The position numbers and the translations under genes were made by a program. Positions 9,558 through 31,358 of a stretch of DNA of 64,000 nucleotides are shown piece by piece. The notes below the pieces were generated by a model that was not told the DNA's origin, ran no database searches, and saw only the letters and a program-made list of their open reading frames with translations. Origin of the DNA: Paraflavitalea soli (lineage in GTDB: Bacteria; Bacteroidota; Bacteroidia; Chitinophagales; Chitinophagaceae); contig NZ_CP032157.1 in NCBI RefSeq assembly GCF_003555545.1, positions 2,856,546 through 2,920,545 of the forward strand. The letters run 5' to 3'. Position 1 is the first letter of the stretch. Each line of letters begins with the position of its first letter.

Positions 9558-9582
9558 TATGGGCAGTCCTGTCAAAGGGCTG

Positions 9583-9787
9583 TTTTGCCCCATCGGAGCT
9601 TGTCCCGCAACAGCGGGAGCTACAGCTGTAGACACCAGGTCGAAAGGTTTTCATGCCCCATCGGGGCTACCCGCTTTGTAGCACAAGCGTATTAAACGTG
9701 TATTCATGCCCCATCGGGGCTACAGCTTTGTAGACACCAGGTCAAAAGGTTTTCATGCCCCAGCGGGGCTACCGCTTTGTAGCACAA
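9583..9787. repeat. Tandem intergenic repeat of GCCCCATCGGGGCTAC type, four units
   Basis: Four diverged units start near 9585, 9655, 9708 and 9757, each with a short inverted repeat (GCCCCATCGGGGC) followed by GCTTTGTAG and a variable linker. Units one and three share the linker ACACCAGGTCRAAAGGTTTT; units two and four share CGCTTTGTAGCACAA. A related sequence is at 34574-34617. This resembles the REP-like intergenic repeats that are common in this phylum. Confidence 0.7.
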
Positions 9788-10012
9788 AAAAAGGTCCCGC
9801 ATACGCGGGACCAGAGAATCTTTTGGACGTGATCAGGAAAACTTAACCTTGGCTTTTCCGGATAATTGGATTGGATTAAGGGCTATTGGATAAGGTTCTT
9901 TGTTGCTTAAATGATATAGTGTCCTATTGGTTTTTCGGATATTGGCATCCCTATTTAAGACTCGGTTTTTCATGGATACTCAGGATTCTGGACAACCGTA
10001 TCATGTAATCAA
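9786..10012 (-). ncRNA. Putative small RNA, copy A of a three-copy family
   Basis: A predicted minus-strand RNA of about 227 nt. The promoter is CTTG with a 20-base spacer and TAGGTTTG (10018-10025). The 3' end is a perfect 8-bp hairpin (9793-9812) followed by seven T on the RNA strand. It shares ordered sequence blocks with copies B (10901-11138) and C (18840-19063): TGTTGAT and GATACGGTT near the 5' end, ATATCCGAAAAACCA in the middle, CCAATTATCCGGAAAA, then TTTTCCTGATCACGTCC before the terminator. The GGAAAA and TTTTCC blocks could pair. The blocks show no shared reading frame. It lies downstream of the DUF1080 gene and faces the antiporter, so it does not lead into a gene. Function unknown. 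Confidence 0.65.
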
Positions 10013-10017
10013 CAATA

Positions 10018-10048
10018 CAAACCTACACATCAAAGCCGGCGGATACAA
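10018..10048 (-). promoter_or_regulatory. Promoter of small RNA copy A
   Basis: On the minus strand TTG (10046-10048), a 20-base spacer and TAGGTTTG (10018-10025) match the Bacteroidota sigma factor consensus. The sequence further upstream (GGGCGGTTTTGC then CTTGTATCC) is nearly the same in copy B. Confidence 0.65.
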
Positions 10049-10227
10049 GCGCAAAACCGCCCTTTCCCCCGTCTGCACCATCTACGGGACCACTCGTAAA
10101 ATTACGGCTATCCACATAGGATATTATTTACGCTGATCTTAGGGACTCCACAGGGTTTACTACGGCTGCCTTAACACCTTGAAACTGAAGAACCCTACAA
10201 CTTACATACACCGGGTGTCCTTTTTCG

Positions 10228-10893
10228 CTATAAAGGTTTTAGCACCACCTGCCTGAAATCGATCGGTGAGCCTTCGTACTGCAGTAAGATGCGGCCCGTT
10301 TTGGAAGAGGCATTCGTGCCCTCATTCACCAGCACCCCATTGAGGTATTGAGAGCAGCTCCCCTGCTTATTCCTGATCAAAATAGTATTCCATTGTCCCA
10401 GCGGCTTTTCCTGTTCACTGGTCCGGGCTACCGCTACACTTTTACCCGGCGCCTTCGTTTCGCCGCGTACCGCCAGCGTTACATTTTCCAGCAGGATAAA
10501 ATCCCCTGTAGCCCCTTCTTTTACCTGAAACTGGATACCCGCAGGCCACAATACATCTTTGGCCGTATCCGGCACATTGTACATCACCCCGCTGTTCTTT
10601 TTACCCGTGCCACGTTGCACAGCAGCATCCATATTCCACCGGTATTCCAATGTCAGTTCAAAATCAGCATAAGACTTTTTCGACATCAGGTAGCCCACCT
10701 TATCCCCATGCAGCCGGATCATACTATCCGTCAGCTGGTATAGCTCTGCGGCATTATCGTACTTATGGTCTTTGGTATAAGCGTACCAGTCAATGGTAGC
10801 ATCGCCGTTCGAAGTTTTACTGCTGTGTATTGTAGAGCTGCATCCGCCTAGGACAAGTGAGGCCACGCAAGCCGTCATGAGGGATCTGATCAT
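10228..10893 (-). CDS. DUF1080 (3-keto-disaccharide hydrolase-like) lipoprotein
   Basis: A 221-residue lipoprotein with the lipobox VLGGC-S near residue 18. The body is the concanavalin-like beta-sandwich of DUF1080 proteins, with characteristic stretches such as SYADFELTLEYRWN, NSGVMYNV and WNTILIRNKQGSCSQYLNG. Some members hydrolyse 3-keto-glycosides, and many are annotated only by the domain. It would sit in the periplasm or outer membrane. Its start lies only 8 bases beyond the terminator of small RNA copy B, so its transcription may depend on read-through or on a promoter hidden in that RNA. Copy A of the RNA follows it on the same strand. Confidence 0.85.
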   Translation of the reverse strand: MIRSLMTACVASLVLGGCSSTIHSSKTSNGDATIDWYAYTKDHKYDNAAELYQLTDSMIRLHGDKVGYLMSKKSYADFELTLEYRWNMDAAVQRGTGKKNSGVMYNVPDTAKDVLWPAGIQFQVKEGATGDFILLENVTLAVRGETKAPGKSVAVARTSEQEKPLGQWNTILIRNKQGSCSQYLNGVLVNEGTNASSKTGRILLQYEGSPIDFRQVVLKPL

Positions 10894-10900
10894 GCAACAA

Positions 10901-11138
10901 AATAAGAAAAGCCCTGATAAAAATCAGGGCTTCATTAACTTTTTTGGACGGTCATCAGGAAAATAAATCACACAGCTTTTCCCGGATAATTGGATATTGA
11001 CATTGGACTTTAAGGATCGTTAACTGATATTGTTTCCCGGCTTTTGGATTTGGATATTGGTGCTATCAGAGCCTGGTTTTTCGGATATCTCGGTGTTGTT
11101 CACCTTTGGATTTGTTGGAAACCGTATCAATTAATCAA
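10901..11138 (-). ncRNA. Putative small RNA, copy B of a three-copy family
   Basis: A predicted minus-strand RNA of about 238 nt with the same block order as copies A and C: TTGTTGATTAATTGATACGG at the 5' end, ATATCCGAAAAACCA, CCAATTATCCGGGAAAAG, TTTTCCTGATGACCGTCC. It ends in a perfect 8-bp hairpin (10911-10918 with 10923-10930) followed by a T-rich run. The promoter is CTTG, 20 bases, TATTTTTG (11144-11174). The terminator ends 8 bases before the ATG of the DUF1080 lipoprotein gene, so this copy could also be a regulated leader. Copy A has no gene behind it, which favours a free-standing RNA. Confidence 0.65.
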
Positions 11139-11143
11139 CAATA

Positions 11144-11174
11144 CAAAAATAGTTATCAACAAGTGTGGATACAA
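11144..11174 (-). promoter_or_regulatory. Promoter of small RNA copy B
   Basis: TTG (11172-11174), a 20-base spacer and a perfect TAnnTTTG box (TATTTTTG, 11144-11151) on the minus strand. The upstream sequence GGGCAGTTTTGC followed by CTTGTATCC matches copy A at nearly every position. Confidence 0.7.
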
Positions 11175-11279
11175 GAGCAAAACTGCCCAATCTCAAAACT
11201 GCATCAATTACGCCGCGTATCGTAAATTTACGAGCACCTTGATAACCATTTCAGTCTGAGGCCCTTGTTTAACCCCTGC

Positions 11280-11291
11280 GCAACCGTTTGC
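11280..11291. promoter_or_regulatory. LacI/GalR-type operator-like palindrome
   Basis: GCAACCGTTTGC is a near-palindrome of the LacI/GalR type. It is the exact reverse complement of the site upstream of the SusC gene (35282-35293), and both are preceded or followed by GCGCAA or TGCG. It lies 103 bases upstream of the LytS-type kinase gene. Confidence 0.45.
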
Positions 11292-11394
11292 GTTTGCCTT
11301 TGCACTCATCACCCCGGCTTTTACGCTCCTGTACTTTCTTTTCATAGTACAGTATAGATGTTGTTGGTTTGCTGTAGAAACGTATTCATGCGCC

Positions 11395-12453
11395 ATGCAA
11401 AGTAGAAGAACACTATCACTTTATTGGAAATGCCAGCTCACAGGCTGGTCCGTGGCATCCCTCTACTGGAACTTTGTAGGCTTTATAGGCACCGGCTTCA
11501 GCATATGGCTGGCTCTGATCCATTTCTTTGCCGACCTGCTCATCTATATTCCCATCACCCACCTTTACCGTAACTACTCAGTCCGGCGGGGATACCATCA
11601 GTTAAGACCCCAACAGCTGCTCATCAGGCTTATTCCAGCTATTATCCTGCTTGGCCTTCTTTTTATGTTGCTCACCATTGCCAAGAACTTCCTGGTCAGG
11701 TACTGGTTTGAAGCCGGTTTCTCCGCCCCCCTCCGCGATGAATTCCGTCAAAGATCCCTAACCACCTTTATCACCGGCACCCGCCTCATGAGCATCTGGC
11801 TCCTGGCCTATTATGGCTATCATTATGCACAACGCGAGATCAAGGCCACCCGCGAAAGCGCACGCTTGGCCATCATTGCCAAAGATGCCCAACTCAATAA
11901 TCTCACCGCCCAGCTCAATCCCCATTTCTTCTTTAATTCACTCAACAATATAAAAGCCCAGGTGATCGACAACCCACAGGCTGCCCGCCGCGCCATCGAC
12001 CTCTTGTCCGAAGTATTACGCACCTCCTTATACAACAGGGATACCACCCTCATCACCGTACAACAGGAAATGGCATTGATCGCAGATTACCTGGAATTGG
12101 AAAAGATGCGCTTTGAAGAAAGATTGCAAACACATATTGAGGTAGACCCAACCATTACCGGGGCCCCTATCTTACCCCTCAGTATCCAAACCCTGGTGGA
12201 GAATGCCATCAAGCATGGAATAGCACGACGCAAGGCAGGCGGCAAAATTACCATCACCATACAACCCAATGATCAAGGCCTGCGGGCCACCGTAGAGAAT
12301 CCCGGTACCTTGCAAGCCCCCGCTACAAGTGGATTGGGATTAAAGAACCTGGCAGAACGATTGCATTTGCAGTTCAATGGAAAAGCTTCCCTGCAACTTA
12401 CCCAGCCAACACCCGAAACCGTAATCGCCACCATTACAATGCCCCTCACATGA
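11395..12453 (+). CDS. LytS/YehU-family sensor histidine kinase
   Basis: A 352-residue membrane kinase with four predicted membrane segments in the first about 150 residues. A His_kinase domain of the LytS type follows, with the phospho-acceptor His in LTAQLNPHFFFNSLNNIKA, and then an HATPase domain with the N box LVENAIKHGIARRKAGG and the glycine-rich SGLGLKNLAERL. It would sense a signal at the inner membrane and phosphorylate the response regulator encoded next. The stop overlaps the start of that gene by 4 bases, so the two are translationally coupled. A LacI-type site lies upstream. Confidence 0.9.
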   Translation: MQSRRTLSLYWKCQLTGWSVASLYWNFVGFIGTGFSIWLALIHFFADLLIYIPITHLYRNYSVRRGYHQLRPQQLLIRLIPAIILLGLLFMLLTIAKNFLVRYWFEAGFSAPLRDEFRQRSLTTFITGTRLMSIWLLAYYGYHYAQREIKATRESARLAIIAKDAQLNNLTAQLNPHFFFNSLNNIKAQVIDNPQAARRAIDLLSEVLRTSLYNRDTTLITVQQEMALIADYLELEKMRFEERLQTHIEVDPTITGAPILPLSIQTLVENAIKHGIARRKAGGKITITIQPNDQGLRATVENPGTLQAPATSGLGLKNLAERLHLQFNGKASLQLTQPTPETVIATITMPLT

Positions 12454-13169
12454 ATCCATACCGTGTAGTGATCATAGATGATGAACGCCTGGCCCGGGAA
12501 GAAATGAAACGACACCTGCTGACTTATCCCGGCTATGAAGTGGTAGGAGAAGCAGCAGATGCCGATGAAGCCGAAGCCATGATCCATGCCCTGCACCCAC
12601 ACCTCATCTTCCTCGACATTCAAATGCCCGAAAGATCAGGGTTCGACCTGCTGGAGTCACTCAGCCATATACCCGAAGTCATATTCACTACCGCTTTTGA
12701 GCGATACGCCGTACAGGCATTCGATACCCACGCACTGGATTACCTGGTAAAGCCTGTGCGCGAGGAACGTTTTGCCCGGGCCATGGAAAGGATCAGTGCC
12801 AAACTGGCCGCACACATCAGTGCCCGGGAAACATTGCCACCCACCCATACCCTCTTCATCAAAGAAGGTGAGCAATACCATTTCATCCAGGTGAAAGATA
12901 TTTACCTCATTGAATCCACTGGCAATTATGCCCGGTTATACTACGCCAATAAGAAAGTGTACATAAAACGATCACTGAACCAACTGGAAAAGACACTCGA
13001 CCCTACCCTCTTTTTCAGGACCAGCAGAACCAATCTTATTAATACCAGTTTTGTCAGGCAGGTACAACCCATCAATGGTGGCAGACTACTCATCAGCCTG
13101 CACACCGGTGACGCCCTTACCGTATCAAGCCGGCAATCAGCCGCCTTTAAAAACAGGAACAAACTATAG
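12450..13169 (+). CDS. LytTR-family response regulator
   Basis: A 239-residue regulator. The receiver domain (1-120) has the acidic pair in VVIIDDERLA, the phospho-acceptor Asp in HLIFLDIQMPERSG (about residue 55) and the conserved Lys in HALDYLVKPV. A LytTR DNA-binding domain follows (about 140-235), seen in FIQVKDIYLIESTGNYARLYY and RTNLINTSFV. It is the partner of the kinase at 11395, with a 4-base overlap. The CocE-like peptidase gene begins 34 bases downstream and may be in the same transcript or a target of the regulator. Confidence 0.92.
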   Translation: MNPYRVVIIDDERLAREEMKRHLLTYPGYEVVGEAADADEAEAMIHALHPHLIFLDIQMPERSGFDLLESLSHIPEVIFTTAFERYAVQAFDTHALDYLVKPVREERFARAMERISAKLAAHISARETLPPTHTLFIKEGEQYHFIQVKDIYLIESTGNYARLYYANKKVYIKRSLNQLEKTLDPTLFFRTSRTNLINTSFVRQVQPINGGRLLISLHTGDALTVSSRQSAAFKNRNKL

Positions 13170-13203
13170 CTTAATTATCCAACCATTTTAAACGATCATT
13201 TTT

Positions 13204-14940
13204 ATGAGAATATTCTTCTCCCTGGCACTCCTATGCCTTTTCACAAGCCTGCGCCTTACCGCACAAACTGCCAACAGCCCTGGCAACCTGCCCGATAGCA
13301 CCTACCTTATCCAGGACAGCATATTGATCAAAACGAGAGATGGTGCACATATCTCAGCCCTGGTGGTCAGAAAACAAGGTATTACAGCCCCCCTGCCTGC
13401 CATCCTCATCTTTACCATCTATGCCCGCAAAACCGATGTTAAAAAAGCGAAGGAAGCAGCCGATAAGGGCTATGTGGGGATCGTTGCCTATACAAGGGGC
13501 AAAAGATACAGCCCGGAAATAGTAGCCCCTTATGAACATGATGGCAACGATGCCTATGATGTAATTGATTGGATCGCCCGCCAGCCCTGGAGCAATCAAC
13601 AGGTGGGCATGTACGGTGGCAGTTACAGTGGCTTTACACAATGGGCTTCTACCAAACACCTCCACCCCGCCCTGAAGACCATCGTACCTTCAGCATCCGT
13701 AGCCCCTGGCCTGGATGCTCCCATGATGAACAATGTGATCATGACCTTTCCTTTCTCCTGGACCTGGTATGTGTCCAACAACAAATGGCTCGACGAAACC
13801 GATTACAACAGTCCCTTATGGGGCAATGTATTGCAGCAATGGTTTCAAGAAGGCCGCTCTTACCGCGCACTCGATACCATGGCCGGCCGCCCCGGTAATA
13901 AGATATTTCACAGTTGGCTCGACCATCCTACCTACGATCAGTACTGGCAGGATATGATCCCTTATAAAGACGAGTTTGCACAGATCAATATCCCCGTGCT
14001 TTCCACCTCTGGTTATTATGATGGCGGACAGGTAGGCGCCACGTATTACCTCAGGGAGCACCTGAAATACAATCCCCGTTCTACCCATTATTTCCTGATC
14101 GGCCCCTATGGCCATTTCGGTTGCCAGGGTTATCCCGATTCTGTTTTCAACAGTTACCCGATCGATCCCGTGGCCAGGATCCCGATCCATGATATCATCT
14201 ACGAATGGTTTGATCATATCCTGAAAGGGAAACCCAAACCTGCTATCCTGAAAGACAATATCAACTACCAGGTAATGGGCAGCAATACCTGGAAGCATGT
14301 CCCTTCCCTCAGCAGGATGAGCAATGATACCATTACCTTTTACCTCAGCAAAGCTCCTTCCCGTCCCTGGCAAAAACTCACTGCCCAACGACCTTCAAGA
14401 CCAGAAACTATTCCACAGGAAATAAATTTTGCTGACCGCGATTCCGTGCACAGCTATTACTACAACAACAAGGTTATTTATGACAGCCTGCATACCAACA
14501 ATGGCCTCGTATTTATCACCGATCCCCTGCAGGCGCCCCTGGAAATATCCGGCCGCTTCACAGGACAGTTGGCAGCCATGATCAATAAGAAAGATATAGA
14601 CTTTAGCGTGGCATTGTTTGAGCAAATGCCAGATGGGCGTTTTTTCTATCTCACCTATTTCATGGGCCGTGCCAGCTATGCAAAAGATATCATGCACAGA
14701 CAGTTGTTGGTGCCGGGCAAAAAGGAGTTCATACCCTTTTCCAATTCTTATATCACCAGTCGTCAATTACAAAAAGGAAGCAGGATCATGGCCATTGTAA
14801 ATATCAATAAGAGCCCTTTCGAACAGATCAATTATGGCACAGGAAAGGACGTTAGCACCGAAACCATACAGGATGCCGGCCTGCCCCTCCGTATTAAATG
14901 GTACAATGACAGTTACCTGAAAATACCCGTTTGGAAATAA
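13204..14940 (+). CDS. Secreted CocE/NonD-family (X-Pro dipeptidyl-peptidase-like) serine hydrolase
   Basis: A 578-residue alpha/beta hydrolase with a signal peptide (MRIFFSLALLCLFTSLRLTAQ). The nucleophile elbow is GMYGGSYSG, with Ser140 as the probable catalytic serine. The Asp and His should lie in ISGYYDGGQ (about 278) and the HFGCQGYPD region (about 305). The C-terminal about 170 residues are the jelly-roll PepX_C domain of this family. Members cleave acyl bonds of esters or N-terminal X-Pro dipeptides, and the substrate cannot be told here. It would act in the periplasm. It follows the LytS/LytTR pair closely. Confidence 0.87.
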   Translation: MRIFFSLALLCLFTSLRLTAQTANSPGNLPDSTYLIQDSILIKTRDGAHISALVVRKQGITAPLPAILIFTIYARKTDVKKAKEAADKGYVGIVAYTRGKRYSPEIVAPYEHDGNDAYDVIDWIARQPWSNQQVGMYGGSYSGFTQWASTKHLHPALKTIVPSASVAPGLDAPMMNNVIMTFPFSWTWYVSNNKWLDETDYNSPLWGNVLQQWFQEGRSYRALDTMAGRPGNKIFHSWLDHPTYDQYWQDMIPYKDEFAQINIPVLSTSGYYDGGQVGATYYLREHLKYNPRSTHYFLIGPYGHFGCQGYPDSVFNSYPIDPVARIPIHDIIYEWFDHILKGKPKPAILKDNINYQVMGSNTWKHVPSLSRMSNDTITFYLSKAPSRPWQKLTAQRPSRPETIPQEINFADRDSVHSYYYNNKVIYDSLHTNNGLVFITDPLQAPLEISGRFTGQLAAMINKKDIDFSVALFEQMPDGRFFYLTYFMGRASYAKDIMHRQLLVPGKKEFIPFSNSYITSRQLQKGSRIMAIVNINKSPFEQINYGTGKDVSTETIQDAGLPLRIKWYNDSYLKIPVWK

Positions 14941-14942
14941 AA

Positions 14943-14974
14943 TTTGGGAAACCTTTTGGTTTCCTATATATTTG
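14943..14974 (+). promoter_or_regulatory. Promoter of the ArsR-type gene
   Basis: TTTG (14943-14946), a 20-base spacer and TATATTTG (14967-14974) match the Bacteroidota consensus TTG-N20-TAnnTTTG well. Transcription should start near 14980, inside the second arm of the operator described next and about 17 bases before the ATG at 14997. Confidence 0.7.
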
Positions 14975-14987
14975 CAACCAAAAGGTT
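14950..14987. promoter_or_regulatory. Inverted-repeat operator over the ArsR promoter
   Basis: Two perfect 12-bp arms, AACCTTTTGGTT (14950-14961) and AACCAAAAGGTT (14976-14987), each itself nearly palindromic, flank the -7 box. A protein bound here would block the promoter, so autorepression by the ArsR-type protein encoded just downstream is likely. Confidence 0.65.
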
Positions 14988-14996
14988 CCATATTAT

Positions 14997-15344
14997 ATGA
15001 AGAGAGATGTATTCCAAGCAATAGCCGATCCAACACGCAGGAAGATCATTCATATGACAGCCCACGAATCACTCAATGTAAATGCTGTAGCCGGCAACTT
15101 TGAGGTAACCCGCACTGCTATTTACAAACACATGAAGATCCTTACCGAATGTGGATTGCTCGTCATAACCCAACAGGGCCGTGAGCGCTTTTGCGAGGCA
15201 AAACTCGATCAACTCAACGAAGTCTCCGATTGGATAGAACAATACCGCCAGTTGTGGGATAACCGCCTTGATAAACTGGAGAACTATTTAGCCGATTTAC
15301 AAACAAAAAAGAAAAGACATGCAAAAAACAAACGCAGCCGGTAA
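14997..15344 (+). CDS. ArsR-family winged-helix regulator
   Basis: A 115-residue regulator starting at ATG 14997 (MKRDVFQAIADPTRRKII), chosen because a promoter with an operator lies just upstream and because this is the usual family start. The winged-helix motif is NVNAVAGNFEVTRTAIYKHMKILTECG, and a Lys-rich tail follows. It has no metal-binding Cys pair of the SmtB type. It belongs to the subgroup that is paired with SRPBCC proteins. It overlaps the SRPBCC gene by 26 bases, so the two form an operon that probably represses itself through the perfect inverted repeat at 14950-14987. The ligand is unknown. Confidence 0.88.
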   Translation: MKRDVFQAIADPTRRKIIHMTAHESLNVNAVAGNFEVTRTAIYKHMKILTECGLLVITQQGRERFCEAKLDQLNEVSDWIEQYRQLWDNRLDKLENYLADLQTKKKRHAKNKRSR

Positions 15345-15843
15345 TGCGCCGGACACCCTCACAGTTACACGGGAGGTATTGATCAAGCGCACCATCAATG
15401 CGCCACGAAAATTGGTATTCGAAGCCTGGGCCGATCCCGATCACCTCAAAAATTGGTATGCCCCCGATGGCTGCACCATCAACATTGTAAAGTATGATTT
15501 CAGGGAAGGTGGCACTTTCCTTACTTGCATCCGTACCCCTTCACTCCATGATTGCTGGTGCAAAGGCGAATTTCTCAACATCACGGCCCCTGAGAAATTA
15601 GTGTATTCCATGATCATTGCCGATCAACACGGCAACGCTGTTAAACCCGTGGAAGCAGGCATGGATCCCGACTGGCCGGCTGAAACCATCGTCACAATCA
15701 CCTTTGAAGCCCAGGGCAATAAAACCAATATCACCCTGCATCAAACCGTAGACGAAGCCCTGGCCAGGCAAACAGGCGCTTATCCAAGCTGGCTCAGCAT
15801 GCTGGACAACCTGGAAGCTACCCTTACCCGGGAGCTCCGGTAG
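15319..15843 (+). CDS. SRPBCC (AHSA1-like) domain protein
   Basis: A 174-residue cytoplasmic protein of the activator-of-Hsp90-ATPase-like START/SRPBCC group. Hallmarks are the start of the fold (VLIKRTINAPRKLVFEAWADPDHLKNWYAPDG) and a C-terminal amphipathic helix (YPSWLSMLDNLEATLTRELR). These proteins have a deep hydrophobic pocket, and most are of unknown ligand. It starts inside the 3' end of the ArsR-type gene and is certainly co-transcribed with it. A clear terminator follows at 15888. Confidence 0.88.
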   Translation: MQKTNAAGNAPDTLTVTREVLIKRTINAPRKLVFEAWADPDHLKNWYAPDGCTINIVKYDFREGGTFLTCIRTPSLHDCWCKGEFLNITAPEKLVYSMIIADQHGNAVKPVEAGMDPDWPAETIVTITFEAQGNKTNITLHQTVDEALARQTGAYPSWLSMLDNLEATLTRELR

Positions 15844-15887
15844 ATAGGTTGTTATTAAGGGAAAGTAAAGTCATGAAGTAACAGCTA

Positions 15888-15921
15888 ACGGTAATATCTT
15901 CATCGGGTATTACCGTTTTTT
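15888..15921 (+). terminator. Intrinsic terminator after the ArsR/SRPBCC operon
   Basis: A perfect 9-bp stem (15888-15896 with 15908-15916) with an 11-nt loop runs into six T (15916-15921). Confidence 0.75.
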
Positions 15922-15931
15922 GTTGACAGCC

Positions 15932-15972
15932 ATTTAACACATCAACAATGCTAAACGAAAAAAGTGTTAAAT
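15932..15972. promoter_or_regulatory. 9-bp inverted repeat upstream of the DUF6157 gene
   Basis: ATTTAACAC (15932-15940) and GTGTTAAAT (15964-15972) are exact inverted copies 23 bases apart, ending 21 bases before the ATG. It could be a regulator site or part of a leader hairpin. Confidence 0.35.
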
Positions 15973-15993
15973 TGTATTCTAGCCATGTAAGCC

Positions 15994-16419
15994 ATGAAAG
16001 ATACCAGATTGCACACGACCAATTATCAAAACACCTTTATAGAAATTGCCGACGATTGTCCGGTAAGAATAGGTGAAGTTCCTCCACAAAGAGGAGAAAA
16101 TAAAACCGTAGCTACTTCCCATTTCGAGCTCATTGCACATCATCCCTACCAGTACACTTCTGATGATGTATTGTTCAAGGTATTTGCCGAAAAAAATAAG
16201 ATCAGCCGCAATGAACAGCCTGCAGCCCGCATAGAATTCTTTTCCAAGGGGCAACCCTGCCTGCGCTCCTCCCCCCTTACCAAACGTTATGGCTGGGGTA
16301 TTCACAGCAATGCTGAAGGAAAGGTGGCCATTTATGCAGTTGACTCTCCGGAATACAAACAATTTACCAAAGACAAAAACCTGCAACACGTAAGGGCCAT
16401 GCGCTCAAAACGCGTATAA
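15994..16419 (+). CDS. DUF6157-family protein
   Basis: A 141-residue soluble protein without signal or membrane segments. The start MKDTRLHTTNYQNTFIEIA, followed by DDCPVRIGEVPP and ending in YKQFTKDKNLQHVRAMRSKR, is typical of the DUF6157 family found widely in Bacteroidota and other bacteria. No biochemical role is known to me. It appears to be monocistronic: a terminator lies before it, and the following open frame begins after 72 bases of AT-rich DNA. Confidence 0.8.
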   Translation: MKDTRLHTTNYQNTFIEIADDCPVRIGEVPPQRGENKTVATSHFELIAHHPYQYTSDDVLFKVFAEKNKISRNEQPAARIEFFSKGQPCLRSSPLTKRYGWGIHSNAEGKVAIYAVDSPEYKQFTKDKNLQHVRAMRSKRV

Positions 16420-16491
16420 GTATTTCCACAACACAACCTTCCAGAGACATTTAATTTCTTTTAACAGCGGAGAAAATATAAAACCACGCTT

Positions 16492-16836
16492 ATGCAAGTG
16501 ATCTATACACCTGCAGCTATATTCTGTTTAATTGCAGTAGTGCTGAGTTTACTCACCGGCAGTGTGCTGCTTATCTTCTCCTCGCATGTTACCAACAATA
16601 AAGCCAACCGGTTGTTGGGAGCCGCTTTTTTGTCATTCGATATTACCTTAACCTTGCAACTATTATTGTTTACCCTGAAAGAGCTGGCCATCGACCTCAA
16701 CATTCCCACCCACCAGGCATCCATTTGCCATTTTATCATTAATATTGTACTCTCAACAGATACATATGAACCATCATTTATTATCCTCCACACCTCCCCC
16801 TCCGGTTGCATTCAATGCATAATAACCGGATGCTGA
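16492..16836 (+). pseudogene. Truncated membrane-AraC-like N-terminus
   Basis: The first about 75 residues have two or three hydrophobic segments and the pattern NKANRLLGAAFLSFDITL, which is usual at the start of AraC regulators with a seven-helix membrane domain. After residue about 85 (HFIINIVLS) the frame turns into low-quality sequence and stops. No downstream frame carries the missing helices or the helix-turn-helix domain. I read it as the remnant of a larger gene, possibly deleted up to the exporter gene that follows. It could also be a genuine small membrane protein of 114 residues. Confidence 0.4.
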
Positions 16837-16952
16837 ATAGATCGCTTTTTACTTTATAGTCCCAGGCCGGGCTCCGGTTGTTATTGCCCAATCCCAATTT
16901 ACACAGGCACTACCTGCCTGCTGATCATTTATTGTCTAAACAACCGGAAACA

Positions 16953-17852
16953 ATGACTAAACATATATTGATGGTTTTTGCCGGAGCCTGCAGCTTCGGT
17001 ATACTCTCTACTTTTGTAAAACTGGCCTATCGCGAAGGATATGCAGCAGCAGAGATATCCGTTTCACAAGCCTTTACAGGAATGCTTGTATTGTGGTTAT
17101 GGGTGTGGCTAAGGAGTAAAAAACAACACACTTCACTTTCCTTACAGCCTATAAGGTCCTGTTGGTGGCAGGTATTATTGACCGGTGCCGCCATTGGCCT
17201 CACCACCTTCCTGTATTATGTATCTGTGCACTATATACCCGCTTCCATAGCCATCATCCTGCTCATGCAGTTTACCTGGATGGGTGTTTTACTCGACCGC
17301 ATCTTTTTCAAAAAGAAAGCAGATGCCATACAGCTCATCACCATTGTCATCATATTAACAGGTACGATAATGGCCAGTGGTATGGACAAGACCCAAATGG
17401 ATGGCGCCTTTATAAAGGGCTGCCTGTATGCACTGGCTTCTGCTTTCTTATATGCTCTGTATGTGGTTGCCAACAGCCGCTATGGCAATGCATTGCCTGC
17501 GCCACAGAAAAGCGCCCTGATCATGACCGGTTCTACATTGGGCATACTGATCGTGAATTTCCAACAGTTGTCAGTCAGCCATCACTTTGATACAGGCCTT
17601 ATAAAATGGGCATTGTTCCTCGCCGTATTTGGCACCATCATTCCACCTGTCTTGTTTGCGAAAGCCATCCCCCAGATAGGTGCAGGTACCAGCGCCATTA
17701 TTATGACCGCTGAATTGCCCGTGGCCATTTGCTGCGCCCACCTCATTCTTGGTGAAGAGATCAGCAAAGTACAATGGGCCGGCATCATAATTATGCTACT
17801 GGCCATAATATGGATGAATAGACAGAAGAATAAGCCCGGCTTACTTACATAG
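16953..17852 (+). CDS. EamA-family (drug/metabolite superfamily) transporter
   Basis: A 299-residue inner-membrane exporter with ten predicted helices in two EamA repeats. The first starts HILMVFAGACSFGILSTFVKLAY, and the second starts at about residue 155 (FIKGCLYALASAFLYALYVVANS). The typical late motif TAELPVAICCAHLILGEEIS is followed by WAGIIIMLLAIIW. Family members export amino acids, nucleosides or other metabolites, and the substrate cannot be predicted. The ATG at 16953 is preferred to an upstream in-frame start because it begins directly before helix 1. Its 3' end overlaps the convergent gene by 12 bases. Confidence 0.9.
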   Translation: MTKHILMVFAGACSFGILSTFVKLAYREGYAAAEISVSQAFTGMLVLWLWVWLRSKKQHTSLSLQPIRSCWWQVLLTGAAIGLTTFLYYVSVHYIPASIAIILLMQFTWMGVLLDRIFFKKKADAIQLITIVIILTGTIMASGMDKTQMDGAFIKGCLYALASAFLYALYVVANSRYGNALPAPQKSALIMTGSTLGILIVNFQQLSVSHHFDTGLIKWALFLAVFGTIIPPVLFAKAIPQIGAGTSAIIMTAELPVAICCAHLILGEEISKVQWAGIIIMLLAIIWMNRQKNKPGLLT

Positions 17853-18752
17853 CTTGTCGATATCGTCCCGGATCGCCGATGCCTTCACCCATTTCACGTC
17901 AAAATTGCTGCTGAAAAAGAAGTATTGACCATCCGGTGAGAAGTAAGAGCAGTATTCATAGGTAGGCGTGTTCACCCGGCTACCCAGGTTCATGGCAGTA
18001 CACCATTTTTGTCCCGTTCTTTTGGCGCCATACAGGTCCGCCTCTCCAAAGCCTTCCTTGCGATCTGCCGCTGTAAATACCAGGTAGTCTTCCTGGGGCG
18101 AAACGCAGGGATCGTGCTCTGTGAGCGGCGAATTGATAGCCGGGCCCAGATTTTCTGGTTTGGTGTACTGTCCATTAACCCATTTGCTTACATAAATATC
18201 TCCTTCTCCCATTCCGCCCCTGCGGAAAGAGGCGAAATAAAGATTGCCATTGGCGGCAAAGGAGATATAGTATTCTGTGCTGTCGGAATTAATGGCTGTC
18301 ACATTCTCCGCTTCACTCCAGCTCCCATTGGCCAGCGGGCGCTTGCGCCAGATATCATAGTCGCCGGAACTATCCCCGGCCCGTTTGGGTCGGTTGGATA
18401 TAAAATACACCGCTCCATCCGGGCCAAAAGTAGCATCCGCCTCTGCATACCGCGTATCTGCAAAAGGAGCCCGTACCGGCTCCGTCCATTTCGTTCCGTC
18501 ATAATGCGTCACCAGCATCACCCATTTTTTCAGGCGCCGGGTAAAATAAAAAGATTGCAGGTCTGGCGAGAAAGCAGCATTGAAGTCCAGCGAATCACTA
18601 CATACTATGCCTGGCATAAATGGCAGCGCAGCCGTATCAGGAGCCGGGGAAGGGTAAGCAATGACGGGACCGGAAGGCATGGGACTGCAACGGGAAAACA
18701 AACCAATCACAGTCAGGCAGGCTAAGGCGGCGGTGGTGCGCAGGAAGTACAT
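17841..18752 (-). CDS. TolB/PD40-type beta-propeller lipoprotein
   Basis: A 303-residue lipoprotein from the ATG at 18752 (MYFLRTTAALACLTVIGLFS followed by the lipobox region FSRC-S). The body shows repeated PD40 blades, for example DSLDFNAAFSPDLQSFYFTR, EADATFGPDGAVYFISNRP, HDPCVSPQEDYLVFTAADR and EYCSYFSPDGQYFFFSSN. This gives a six-bladed TolB-like propeller. Such proteins sit in the periplasm and bind proteins or sugars, and some belong to OmpA-linked systems. The stop overlaps the end of the EamA gene by 12 bases. Small RNA copy C ends 88 bases upstream of the start. Confidence 0.85.
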   Translation of the reverse strand: MYFLRTTAALACLTVIGLFSRCSPMPSGPVIAYPSPAPDTAALPFMPGIVCSDSLDFNAAFSPDLQSFYFTRRLKKWVMLVTHYDGTKWTEPVRAPFADTRYAEADATFGPDGAVYFISNRPKRAGDSSGDYDIWRKRPLANGSWSEAENVTAINSDSTEYYISFAANGNLYFASFRRGGMGEGDIYVSKWVNGQYTKPENLGPAINSPLTEHDPCVSPQEDYLVFTAADRKEGFGEADLYGAKRTGQKWCTAMNLGSRVNTPTYEYCSYFSPDGQYFFFSSNFDVKWVKASAIRDDIDKLCK

Positions 18753-18839
18753 GGTTGGGTGCTTTCTATAAAGATAACCCATAACAGGCGCTTTTAGGCC
18801 AGCGGGCACCATTGGCGCTCACCGGCAATAAACAGGCAC

Positions 18840-19063
18840 AAAAAAGCCCCGCTGGTGCGGGGCTTAAAATCTTTTGGACGTGATTCAGAAAACATTAACC
18901 ATGAAGATTTTCCGGGATAATTGGATATGATACTGGAATTTTAAATGGTCGTTAAATGATATAGCTTCCGTTGGTTCTTTTTGGATTTTGGACGTTTGGT
19001 TTTTCCTGGATATTGTGGTCTTTCAGGATGGTTGGATTTTTCGGAAACCGTATCGCTTATCAA
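18840..19063 (-). ncRNA. Putative small RNA, copy C of a three-copy family
   Basis: The most diverged copy, about 224 nt on the minus strand. It keeps the blocks in order: TGTTGAT, GATACGGTTTCC, ATATCCAGGAAAAACCA, CTATATCATTTAACGAC, CCAATTATCCCGGAAAA and a TTTTCTGAATCACGTCC block before the terminator. The hairpin is perfect over 7 bp (18846-18852 with 18857-18863) and is followed by six T. The promoter is CTTG, 20 bases, TACTTTTA (19069-19099). As with copy B, the next gene on the strand is a lipoprotein gene. Confidence 0.6.
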
Positions 19064-19068
19064 CATCA

Positions 19069-19099
19069 TAAAAGTAGTTTTAAAACTTCTTTAACACAA
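19069..19099 (-). promoter_or_regulatory. Promoter of small RNA copy C
   Basis: TTG (19097-19099) and TACTTTTA (19069-19076) are separated by 20 bases on the minus strand, the same spacing as in copies A and B. The last base of the -7 box departs from consensus (A for G). Confidence 0.5.
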
Positions 19100-19189
19100 G
19101 AGGAAATATGCTCAATTAAAAAGTTTCGGTAAATACATCCAAAATCGTAAAAATACGAAGTCCGTTTTTGGGCTTTTTCCATCTCTCCG

Positions 19190-29441: not shown

Positions 29442-31358
29442 GTGTGTCACGAAAGAAAGGAAGTTGGATAAGTTCTTTTCCATGCTGTAGATAAGATGGT
29501 GGTGGGCCCACCGCACACGCTGTACAGGCGGAGTGTGCAAACCACCTTAATGATGCTGTAGATAAAAAAGCTATGGTATTGAGCGATTAAGGAAAAGGCG
29601 TCTATAGGCGTCAGGTGCGTGTAAAGAAGCTGAATGCAAATGAACCGTTATAGAATTGTCGAAATAGTACCTACTTGTCAAAACTGTATAAATCTTGCGG
29701 ATACAGGATAATTGTAGCGGATAACCTGTTAACCGGCTACAAGGCAGGCGGCAAAAAGACGGCAGGAGCTTTACACAGGCTTATCTAGGGAACGTGAGAG
29801 GCTGTCGTAGTGATGTGCCGGAGTGCTCAGCATGAATCCCGCCGGAGGCGGGAGACTGTTCAATGAATATTCTACAGTTCATAGTGCTGCTCAATCATGC
29901 CGCAGGCATGAGAAGCATTACGAAGCGTCGGACAAAGCCATAGTAGCGAAGACATGCTGCGAAAGCAGTAAAGAGCGAAGGGCTTTGGTTATCCCGGTAA
30001 TACTAATTGGACACAACCATTAAAACAATGGGATGACGAACAACGAACTTACCAAATCATTACCTGTGAGCAAACAGATGGTATGGGAAGCCTGGCTGCA
30101 GGTAAAGCGAAATGGAGGGAGTGCTGGAATAGACAAAGAAAGCATCAGGATGTTTGATGTCAACCTGTCTGGAAACCTGTACAAACTCTGGAATCGTTTG
30201 AGCAGCGGAAGCTATTTTCCACCACCGGTGCGCACAGTGTATATACTTAAAAAGCAAGGAGGCAAAAGACCATTAGGCATCCCTACTGTAACCGATCGTA
30301 TTGCGCAAACGGTAGTAAAGCAGTATGTAGAACCAATGCTTGATCAACAGTTCCATCCAGGTTCATATGGCTACCGCCCGGGAAAGAGTGCACATGATGC
30401 AGTGGAGCAGTGTCGGCAAAACTGCCGGCAATATGCATGGGTAATAGATATAGATATCAAAAGTTATTTTGATAATATCAGCCATGCCATGTTAAAGCAA
30501 CTGCTACAGGCCTATATCAGGGACAAATGGGTGTTAATGTACATAGAAAGATGGCTGCAGGCCGGAGTGGAGCAGGAAGATGGAAGTATTACAACCAGGG
30601 AGAAAGGGACACCTCAGGGTGGAGTAGTCAGTCCATTGATAGCCAACTTATATCTGCATGAATGCCTGGACAAGTGGATGTTGGAAGAAAACCGGAACAA
30701 TCCGTTTGAACGTTATGCCGATGATATAGTAGTACACTGTGACAGTAAGGAAGCGGCGGAAAAGCTATTGGAGTCTATACGGATACGGATGGGATTGTAT
30801 GGATTGGAGTTGCACCCCGAAAAGACAAAAATAGTATACTGTAAAGACTATCGCAGAGACAAGGAGCACGACAACAGGAGCTTTACCTTTCTGGGATTTG
30901 ATTTTCAACCCCGAATGCGGAAGAGCAATCGTGGTGGCCGGTTTCTGTGTTTCCTGCCAGCTATTAGCAAGGCGGGTAAGAAGAAAATACGGGGGGAAAT
31001 GCAAGCTGTTTTACTGATAAAGGATACAGAGCAAACAATTGAGGACATAGCAGGAAGGTTGAACAGTAAATTGCGGGGATGGATAAACTACTATGGAAAG
31101 TATGAAAAGTGGGAAACGTACGAGGTGCTGTGGTATCTGAACAAGCGGCTGGTGAAATGGGTAAAGAATAAATACCGGTTAACAGGCTTAAATGATGGCG
31201 TGAAGAAGTACAGGGAACTGAAGTTAGCTACCCCAAAATTATTCTACCACTGGCGATTAGGTATAAACTGATTACGGGATAACAAGAGCCGTATGACGGG
31301 AGACTGTCACGTACGGTTCTGTGAGCGGGTAGGGCTGTAATGCCCTGCTCTACTCGAC
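29442..31358 (+). mobile_element. Group II intron with maturase
   Basis: The element starts GTGTG at 29442. The six exon bases before it (CGCAAG, 29436-29441) are exactly complementary to CTTGCG at 29694-29699, as expected for an IBS1/EBS1 pair. Domain V is the 34-nt hairpin at about 31286-31319 (GAGCCGTATGACG to CACGTACGGTTC). Domain VI follows and the intron ends CGAC at 31358. The maturase gene occupies domain IV. About 1917 nt in all, and it appears intact. It inserted about 100 bases after the RHS operon terminator. Confidence 0.85.
30033..31271 (+). CDS. ltrA: Group II intron reverse transcriptase/maturase
   Basis: A 412-residue intron-encoded protein. The reverse transcriptase domain runs from about 50 to 285, with RPLGIPTVTDRIAQ, IDIKSYFDNI, TPQGGVVSPLIANLYLH and the catalytic YADD (228-231). 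The maturase (GIIM) domain follows with LRGWINYYGKYEKW. No HNH endonuclease domain is seen at the C-terminus (ends YHWRLGIN), so the intron probably uses replication forks or other primers for insertion. The protein would bind and splice its own intron and copy it into DNA. It starts at ATG 30033 in intron domain IV and ends shortly before domain V. Confidence 0.93.
   Translation: MTNNELTKSLPVSKQMVWEAWLQVKRNGGSAGIDKESIRMFDVNLSGNLYKLWNRLSSGSYFPPPVRTVYILKKQGGKRPLGIPTVTDRIAQTVVKQYVEPMLDQQFHPGSYGYRPGKSAHDAVEQCRQNCRQYAWVIDIDIKSYFDNISHAMLKQLLQAYIRDKWVLMYIERWLQAGVEQEDGSITTREKGTPQGGVVSPLIANLYLHECLDKWMLEENRNNPFERYADDIVVHCDSKEAAEKLLESIRIRMGLYGLELHPEKTKIVYCKDYRRDKEHDNRSFTFLGFDFQPRMRKSNRGGRFLCFLPAISKAGKKKIRGEMQAVLLIKDTEQTIEDIAGRLNSKLRGWINYYGKYEKWETYEVLWYLNKRLVKWVKNKYRLTGLNDGVKKYRELKLATPKLFYHWRLGIN

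Follow-up and report, generated by a model that had tools for sequence, protein, structure and literature searches.

A large and apparently undescribed family of UCC-rich non-coding RNA genes in Chitinophagaceae

The Gac/Rsm circuit combines a two-component system, with a NarL/FixJ-type response regulator, and RNAs in which a trinucleotide motif is reiterated, and the LhrC RNAs of Listeria use UCCC motifs. In the published accounts, which are drawn on throughout in extract, Gac/Rsm RNAs occur as several paralogues per genome, duplicates included (PMC7911923); LhrC is multicopy, and the two-component system LisRK is named for it (PMC4132741); and Bacteroides thetaiotaomicron has a paralogous family of small RNAs (sRNAs), FopS/GibS, which is associated with the RNA-binding protein RbpB and pairs with mRNAs (PMC11697453). 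FopS is described as an open 5' stretch with a terminator, transcribed from canonical or PM2 promoters (PMC11697453, PMC7366714), and the extract of the latter account reports no obvious Hfq or ProQ for Bacteroides (PMC7366714). The present analysis concerns a further set of RNA genes, represented by three minus-strand copies, A, B and C, in a 64,000-nucleotide stretch of the genome of Paraflavitalea soli (contig NZ_CP032157.1, positions 2,856,546 to 2,920,545); this whole stretch is referred to as the window, and positions in it are counted from its first letter. Comparison among related genomes establishes a gene family with its promoter, a closing stem, an enriched motif and, in one class of members, linkage to a regulator gene. 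It gives good support to the view that the three copies have paralogues in the host, seven or eight non-coding RNA genes in all, and that these belong to a large, apparently undescribed non-coding RNA gene family across Chitinophagaceae. The reading that we tentatively favour from this analysis is that the members are multicopy RNAs acting in trans, which would serve as multivalent platforms titrating a UCC-recognising RNA-binding protein under two-component control.

Set beside the Gac/Rsm and BarA/UvrY-Csr systems (RsmX/Y/Z, CsrB/C), the family is alike in having several paralogous RNAs per genome and a reiterated trinucleotide motif, but this motif is UCC instead of GGA, multiple GGA motifs are not found, the RNA has a closing stem (P1), and a regulator gene adjoins the RNA gene in the members that we call class I. 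CsrA (PF02599) was found in none of 79 genomes, the host's own included, while three of 14 control genomes were positive. With no CsrA detected and a motif other than GGA, membership of Gac/Rsm fails, while its working logic may hold. A CsrA sponge read from the opposite strand was considered and rejected, because the promoters and terminators lie on the minus strand and CsrA was not found. LhrC shares with the family its multiple copies, the link with a two-component system and C-rich motifs in open regions; it differs in that CCC is avoided here and a UCCC series is not found, in its fold, and in belonging to another phylum. FopS/GibS are likewise a paralogous sRNA family of Bacteroidota, but no closing stem or UCC series is described for them in the extracts cited, and the members studied here had no match in Rfam 15, a release in which the presence of FopS was left unchecked. 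At the gathering score, Rfam 15 gave no match for the region of copies A to C or for 18 other loci, and a relaxed threshold gave only scattered sub-threshold matches (13 and 6), which were taken as chance; the covariance models of 6S RNA, transfer-messenger RNA (tmRNA) and RNase P RNA had no match. An earlier reading of the window from its letters alone (the sequence-only reading) had proposed such a search and had stated that no described family with these motifs was known to it; no credible match was obtained and the statement holds as far as tested. Nor was a description of the family found among the papers listed by searches of the open-licence literature of PubMed Central, judged by titles and the first part of abstracts.

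The sequence-only reading had placed the copies at 9786-10048 (A), 10901-11174 (B) and 18840-19099 (C), all on the minus strand, and these positions are confirmed. The likeness among them is above chance by blastn within the host genome, where copy A recovers C (E-value 1.3e-8) and, in part, B (1.6e-4), and copy C recovers B (9.5e-14); when the three are aligned, 123 of the 302 columns are identical in all. The count of three was too low. The host carries seven clear members, namely A, B, C, a fourth A/B/C-like copy (1899599-1899731), class I-a, class I-b and one class II copy, 'class II' denoting in all counts a mixed group that is neither class I nor GATACGG-bearing. The fourth copy matches a covariance model, R2, built only from 15 A/B/C sequences, with E 4.6e-9 in the search of the family and 6.5e-11 in another R2 search. 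A probable eighth member (5788852-5789010) matches the same model weakly (E 0.088); by eye, its start resembles the promoter, TACGA occurs upstream of it, and the stem matches.

The 15 sequences could be aligned because orthologues of A, B and C are present in all five genus genomes searched (host included), where they lie near each other and have largely the same neighbour genes. Kept in the alignment are an upstream palindrome, CGTA-N4-TACG (one half of which is decayed in one C copy), an GGGCAGTTTTGCTC-type element, the -33/-7 promoter pair, the 5' strand with GATACGG, the UCC-rich interior blocks, the 3' strand of P1 and the terminator, and GTCCAAAAG is kept in nearly all of the copies. 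The conserved layout reaches about 100 bp upstream of the promoter, farther than the sequence-only reading had described. This retention in five of five genomes, together with the promoter, the terminators across the genus, the paired stem and the spread through the family, supports the interpretation, first advanced in that reading, of a transcribed and structured regulatory RNA family. The same reading held that the shared blocks do not code. This is borne out in that no open reading frame is common to all copies, and it needs qualifying in that short ATG frames occur in A and in some C copies. One such frame, beginning in the stem (MIR..), runs for 15-17 codons in all five A copies and for 34-58 codons in three of the five C copies, and is open in none of the five B copies; these frames have no common protein sequence past the first residues. 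A coding RNA was rejected on this check, which considered ATG starts only.

Across the wider family, 135 distinct promoter-bearing members were collected. Most blastn matches outside the genus were confined to the terminator and were set aside; the shared promoter was read by eye from blastn traces outside the genus and then searched within family genomes only, where its pattern is present in 94 of 394 genomes and 33 of 101 genera, with a reversed control of 0 in every listed row. Of 298 genomes in the order, 29 match a stem pattern, AAGTTGATTGA-N80-110-TCARTCAACTT, and every one of these is among the 85 genomes of the host's own family, with none among the 213 of the order's other families. 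In a scan of titled genomes at least 120 stretches were found; among the 80 matches listed, two are titled outside Bacteroidota (a Nostocales metagenome-assembled genome and an unplaced bacterium) and are likely contamination, and the rest are titled Chitinophagaceae or wider Bacteroidota. A second covariance model, R1, was built from 36 class I sequences (the class I alignment, A3, takes 35 of the 47 selected class I domains and one from the host genome), and of 295 genomes in the class it matches three, each from the host's family. In the search of the family, with E-values up to 0.1 accepted, R2 matches 17 of 98 genomes. It detects its own members (A 9898-10015 at 8e-22, B 11011-11141 at 6.4e-28, C 18943-19066 at 7.5e-25) and the class II copy of the host (L081, 1.6e-6), and, in the kind of search that the sequence-only reading had suggested, it reaches members in other Chitinophagaceae genera (L040 at 5.7e-7, L269 at 8.1e-7, L270 at 1.4e-6 and the class I locus L063 at 1.6e-5). 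Tandem arrays of three to four copies, every copy with its own promoter, occur in three genomes (G103, G175, G225). Nine of the 135 members had no recognisable P1 3' strand and were dropped from the domain counts; in the remaining 126, which give 124 distinct domains, this strand is exact in 116, has one mismatch in seven and two in three. Two loci of the genus g72 (L023 and L034) have long UCC-rich stretches that match R2 only in part and, by eye, carry no recognisable family promoter.

The primary-sigma consensus of Bacteroidota has TTG at -33 and TAnnTTTG at -7, separated by about 20 nt (PMC7366714). All three window copies have the TTG and exactly 20 nt before the box, as had been noted from the letters; the box TAnnTTTG is exact in A (TTG 10046..10048, TAGGTTTG at 10018..10025) and B (TTG 11172..11174, TATTTTTG at 11144..11151), whereas C (TTG 19097..19099) has TACTTTTA at 19069..19076, a departure common to all five copy C orthologues. 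A longer promoter pattern occurs at 14 sites in the five genus genomes, 13 of which are family members, and the reversed control at one. Upstream of the promoter, the 126 regions contain TTACGA 86 times against 8.6 when shuffled, at fixed positions; relative to the -33 TTG, the peak of TACGA (69 occurrences) lies about 50 bp upstream and that of GTAnnTAC (57 occurrences) about 40 bp upstream, and GCAnnnnTGCTC stands exactly and immediately before the TTG in 47 of the 126. The palindrome kept upstream of the copies is found in the window, again on the minus strand, at 10094..10107 (A, CGTA-N4-TACG), 11220..11233 (B, TCGTAAATTTACGA) and 19145..19158 (C, TCGTATTTTTACGA), and GGGCAGTTTTGCTC adjoins the -33 TTG of copy B at 11175..11188. 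Sigma-70-type promoters in two scanned regions were at chance level and were rejected. The -33/-7 spacers of many members contain TTATCCACA or TGTGGATA, which resemble DnaA boxes. Between a Na+/H+ antiporter-like gene and copy A (9571-9773) lie three to four palindromic GCCCCATCGGGGC units, spaced by 49-68 bp, with the look of repetitive extragenic palindromes (REP).

From promoter to terminator, the predicted minus-strand transcripts would measure about 228 nt for A (9786..10013), 239 nt for B (10901..11139) and 225 nt for C (18840..19064). The minimum free energy (MFE) fold of copy A consists of the closing stem, a second hairpin and the terminator. According to alignment and fold, P1 is formed by a 5' strand at 9990..10013 in A, 11117..11139 in B and 19043..19064 in C, and a 3' strand at 9905..9924, 11019..11038 and 18950..18970, respectively. 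The second hairpin, P2, is placed by the MFE folds at 9832..9864 in A (GGAAAA..TTTTCC, also aligned) and at 10954..10987 in B; its counterpart in C by alignment is 18884..18917, a region that the MFE fold of C pairs otherwise. The hairpin terminators that the sequence-only reading had seen on all three copies were recovered by an independent scan at 9793..9812 (A, with a T-run at 9786-9792), 10908..10933 (B) and 18844..18865 (C), the chance expectation being 1.8 and 0.5 sites in the two regions scanned; the hairpins of B and C score on the plus strand too. Downstream of the class II stem, four loci from three genera (L040, L081, L082, L098) have a conserved 3' domain of nested stems (ACCGCCTGC..CCTCCTGCTA..TAGCAGGAGGCAGCAGCGGT), by eye with no clear T-run.

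Pairing in P1 is retained as its sequence changes. In the 15 A/B/C sequences, standard pairs make up 91.9% of the 16-pair stem, compared with 88.6% in shuffles (reached in 0 of 500) and 31-46% when the strands are slid, and its covariation is 0.143 against 0.094 (0 of 500); by eye, the A copies have TGTCC/GGACA or TATCC/GGATA where others have TTTCC/GGAAA. In the 36 class I sequences the 12-pair stem is paired in 98.8% of cells against 96.9% in shuffles, and both sides are changed in 12 cells, a number reached in none of 500 shuffles; eight of the pairs are invariant and hence uninformative. RNAalifold on class I predicts P1 only, with the remainder open. Many members have in P1 a perfect inverted repeat whose arms are separated by about 100 bp, a form that would suit an inert repeat or miniature inverted-repeat element resembling a gene. 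Such an origin is already contradicted and appears very improbable, as the stem changes preserve pairing, the promoter and operators are conserved outside the inverted repeat, the same neighbours recur over many genera, and neither the stem pattern in viral contigs nor copy C in phage or plasmid collections found a match.

A U-tract (at least eight T of 16) follows the P1 3' strand in 104 of the 126 members, those of the window's group not among them, and so P1 may itself be the terminator in the short forms. The members could, in that case, be cis-acting leaders or attenuators, in which P1 and its U-tract compete as a terminator with an internal hairpin and control whether transcription continues into a longer RNA or into a gene downstream. 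Many non-class-I members do repeat the P1 3' strand internally (by eye), and in the window copies B and C precede genes of the same direction, a 3-keto-disaccharide hydrolase-like gene (just after B) and a PD40 gene. We consider attenuation quite unlikely, however, since A, B and C have no U-tract after P1 and each ends in its own strong terminator, the gene facing copy A is convergent with it, the PD40 gene beside C has no match in one of four relatives and lies more than 1 kb away in another, and each of the tandem copies has a promoter.

The 126 interiors contain 40% A and 12.5% G. TCC occurs in them 657 times against 396 in shuffles and ACCGTC 76 times against 2.5, while CCC is depleted (60 against 387 expected with overlaps counted, 52 against about 255 without), figures that overstate independence because the motif rows are related. 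In all 124 domain interiors TCC outnumbers GGA, with 0.84 GGA per domain interior and 5.25 TCC per whole domain. The context of the sites is mostly (A/G)UCC(A)(A/G), and the distance between neighbouring UCC sites is 7 nt in 98 of 524 gaps (18.7% versus 4.2%); in non-class-I members the spacing peak is shared by 7 and 8 nt. A long core, UCCAAURUCC..ACCGUCCAG, is nearly invariant in class I, and outside class I the number and context of the motifs vary freely.

These motifs could also act as those of LhrC may do, with open UCC pairing to GGA sites near the start codons of mRNAs and extra copies adding dosage. The multiple copies, often beside a response regulator, the C-containing motifs and the tandem arrays all agree with it, the class I core would make a good seed, and there are precedents in the multicopy LhrC with LisRK (PMC4132741) and in the pairing of FopS/GibS with mRNAs (PMC11697453). 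Against it stand the strong avoidance of CCC, the variation of motifs outside class I, and Hfq, for which no match over the cut-off and one weak match were found in 79 genomes. Bacteroidota, moreover, make little use of Shine-Dalgarno sites. Given that variation and the avoidance of CCC, protein binding fits better than mRNA pairing, and we regard an LhrC-like mode of action, the chief alternative to the favoured reading, as possible but rather doubtful.

Linkage to a regulator was counted where the locus spans 2.9 kb or more and includes 1 kb or more upstream, as do 41 of 57 class I loci and 49 of 66 others. In 33 of the 41 class I loci a NarL/FixJ response regulator gene lies divergent to the RNA, compared with four of the 49, and in 25 of the 33 linked loci the two are 203-254 bp apart. 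Both class I copies of the host have this arrangement, and their neighbours are two of three host proteins tested, all with the domains Response_reg and GerE. A single clade of 46 rows (support 97/91) contains every one of the 40 adjacent regulators, and of its six other rows two were then also found beside the RNA. Many other members adjoin a cystathionine beta-synthase-like gene (23 loci) or a BtuF-like gene (12 loci), both named by eye. Two proteins recur beside the class I-b RNA, at 9 loci (L235:7228-7602) and 12 loci (L235:7674-8366), neither with a Pfam match, and the second looks membrane-bound.

Under the favoured reading, in which the RNAs titrate a protein, each RNA would start at the primary-sigma (-33/-7) promoter preceded by the operator array, P1 would close its 5' part, and the G-poor interior would display many UCC motifs, often set in pairs 7-8 nt apart. 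The NarL/FixJ regulators divergent from the host's two class I paralogues would most likely turn the family on, and the RNAs would act in trans by titrating a UCC-recognising protein, a logic like that of Gac/Rsm with other parts. That the RNAs are transcribed, that the regulator activates them, and that a protein partner exists and is titrated are steps that we infer, and several observations weigh against them. Transcription of the members is deduced from sequence alone, and we know of no UCC-binding protein. UCC is only slightly more open than in shuffles (0.696 versus 0.649), and in the window it is 0.51 open in copy A against 0.52 for all bases, and 0.55 against 0.54 in copy C. The bare upstream palindrome is at chance level in the host genome, with 9 sites against 8. 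Covarying pairs, which the sequence-only reading had proposed to look for, are present in class I, where the cells changed on both sides exceed shuffles, but in A/B/C two pairs are changed on both sides, a number that 264 of 500 shuffles attain. With R1, copy C is matched at no better than E 0.4 and copies A and B give no match, and R2 matches in part UCC-rich stretches that have no stem (L023), so that composition contributes to its matching; the counts, too, are drawn from related, non-independent sequences. Non-class-I members keep their other neighbours as faithfully, so the linkage to the regulator may be plain synteny and is suggestive without being proof of control. The window copies have no adjacent NarL regulator, and the LytTR pair of the window, considered as a partner of the cluster, was rejected, as it was not found in the region compared from one relative (G001).

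It is conceivable, if somewhat unlikely, that Chitinophagaceae have an independent circuit of the Gac/Rsm type, in which NarL/FixJ regulators would drive about eight UCC RNAs that titrate a global RNA-binding protein. If true, this circuit would sit in a lineage without detected CsrA and without Hfq over the cut-off, and it would bear on post-transcriptional control in those bacteria of the phylum that lack the usual RNA chaperones. RNAs that are spread through a family, share a nearly exclusive promoter, repeat one motif and recur beside a regulator gene offer a direct experimental handle. Elsewhere in the window, on the plus strand, Rfam recognises two group II intron pieces (29498-29616 and 31284-31358).

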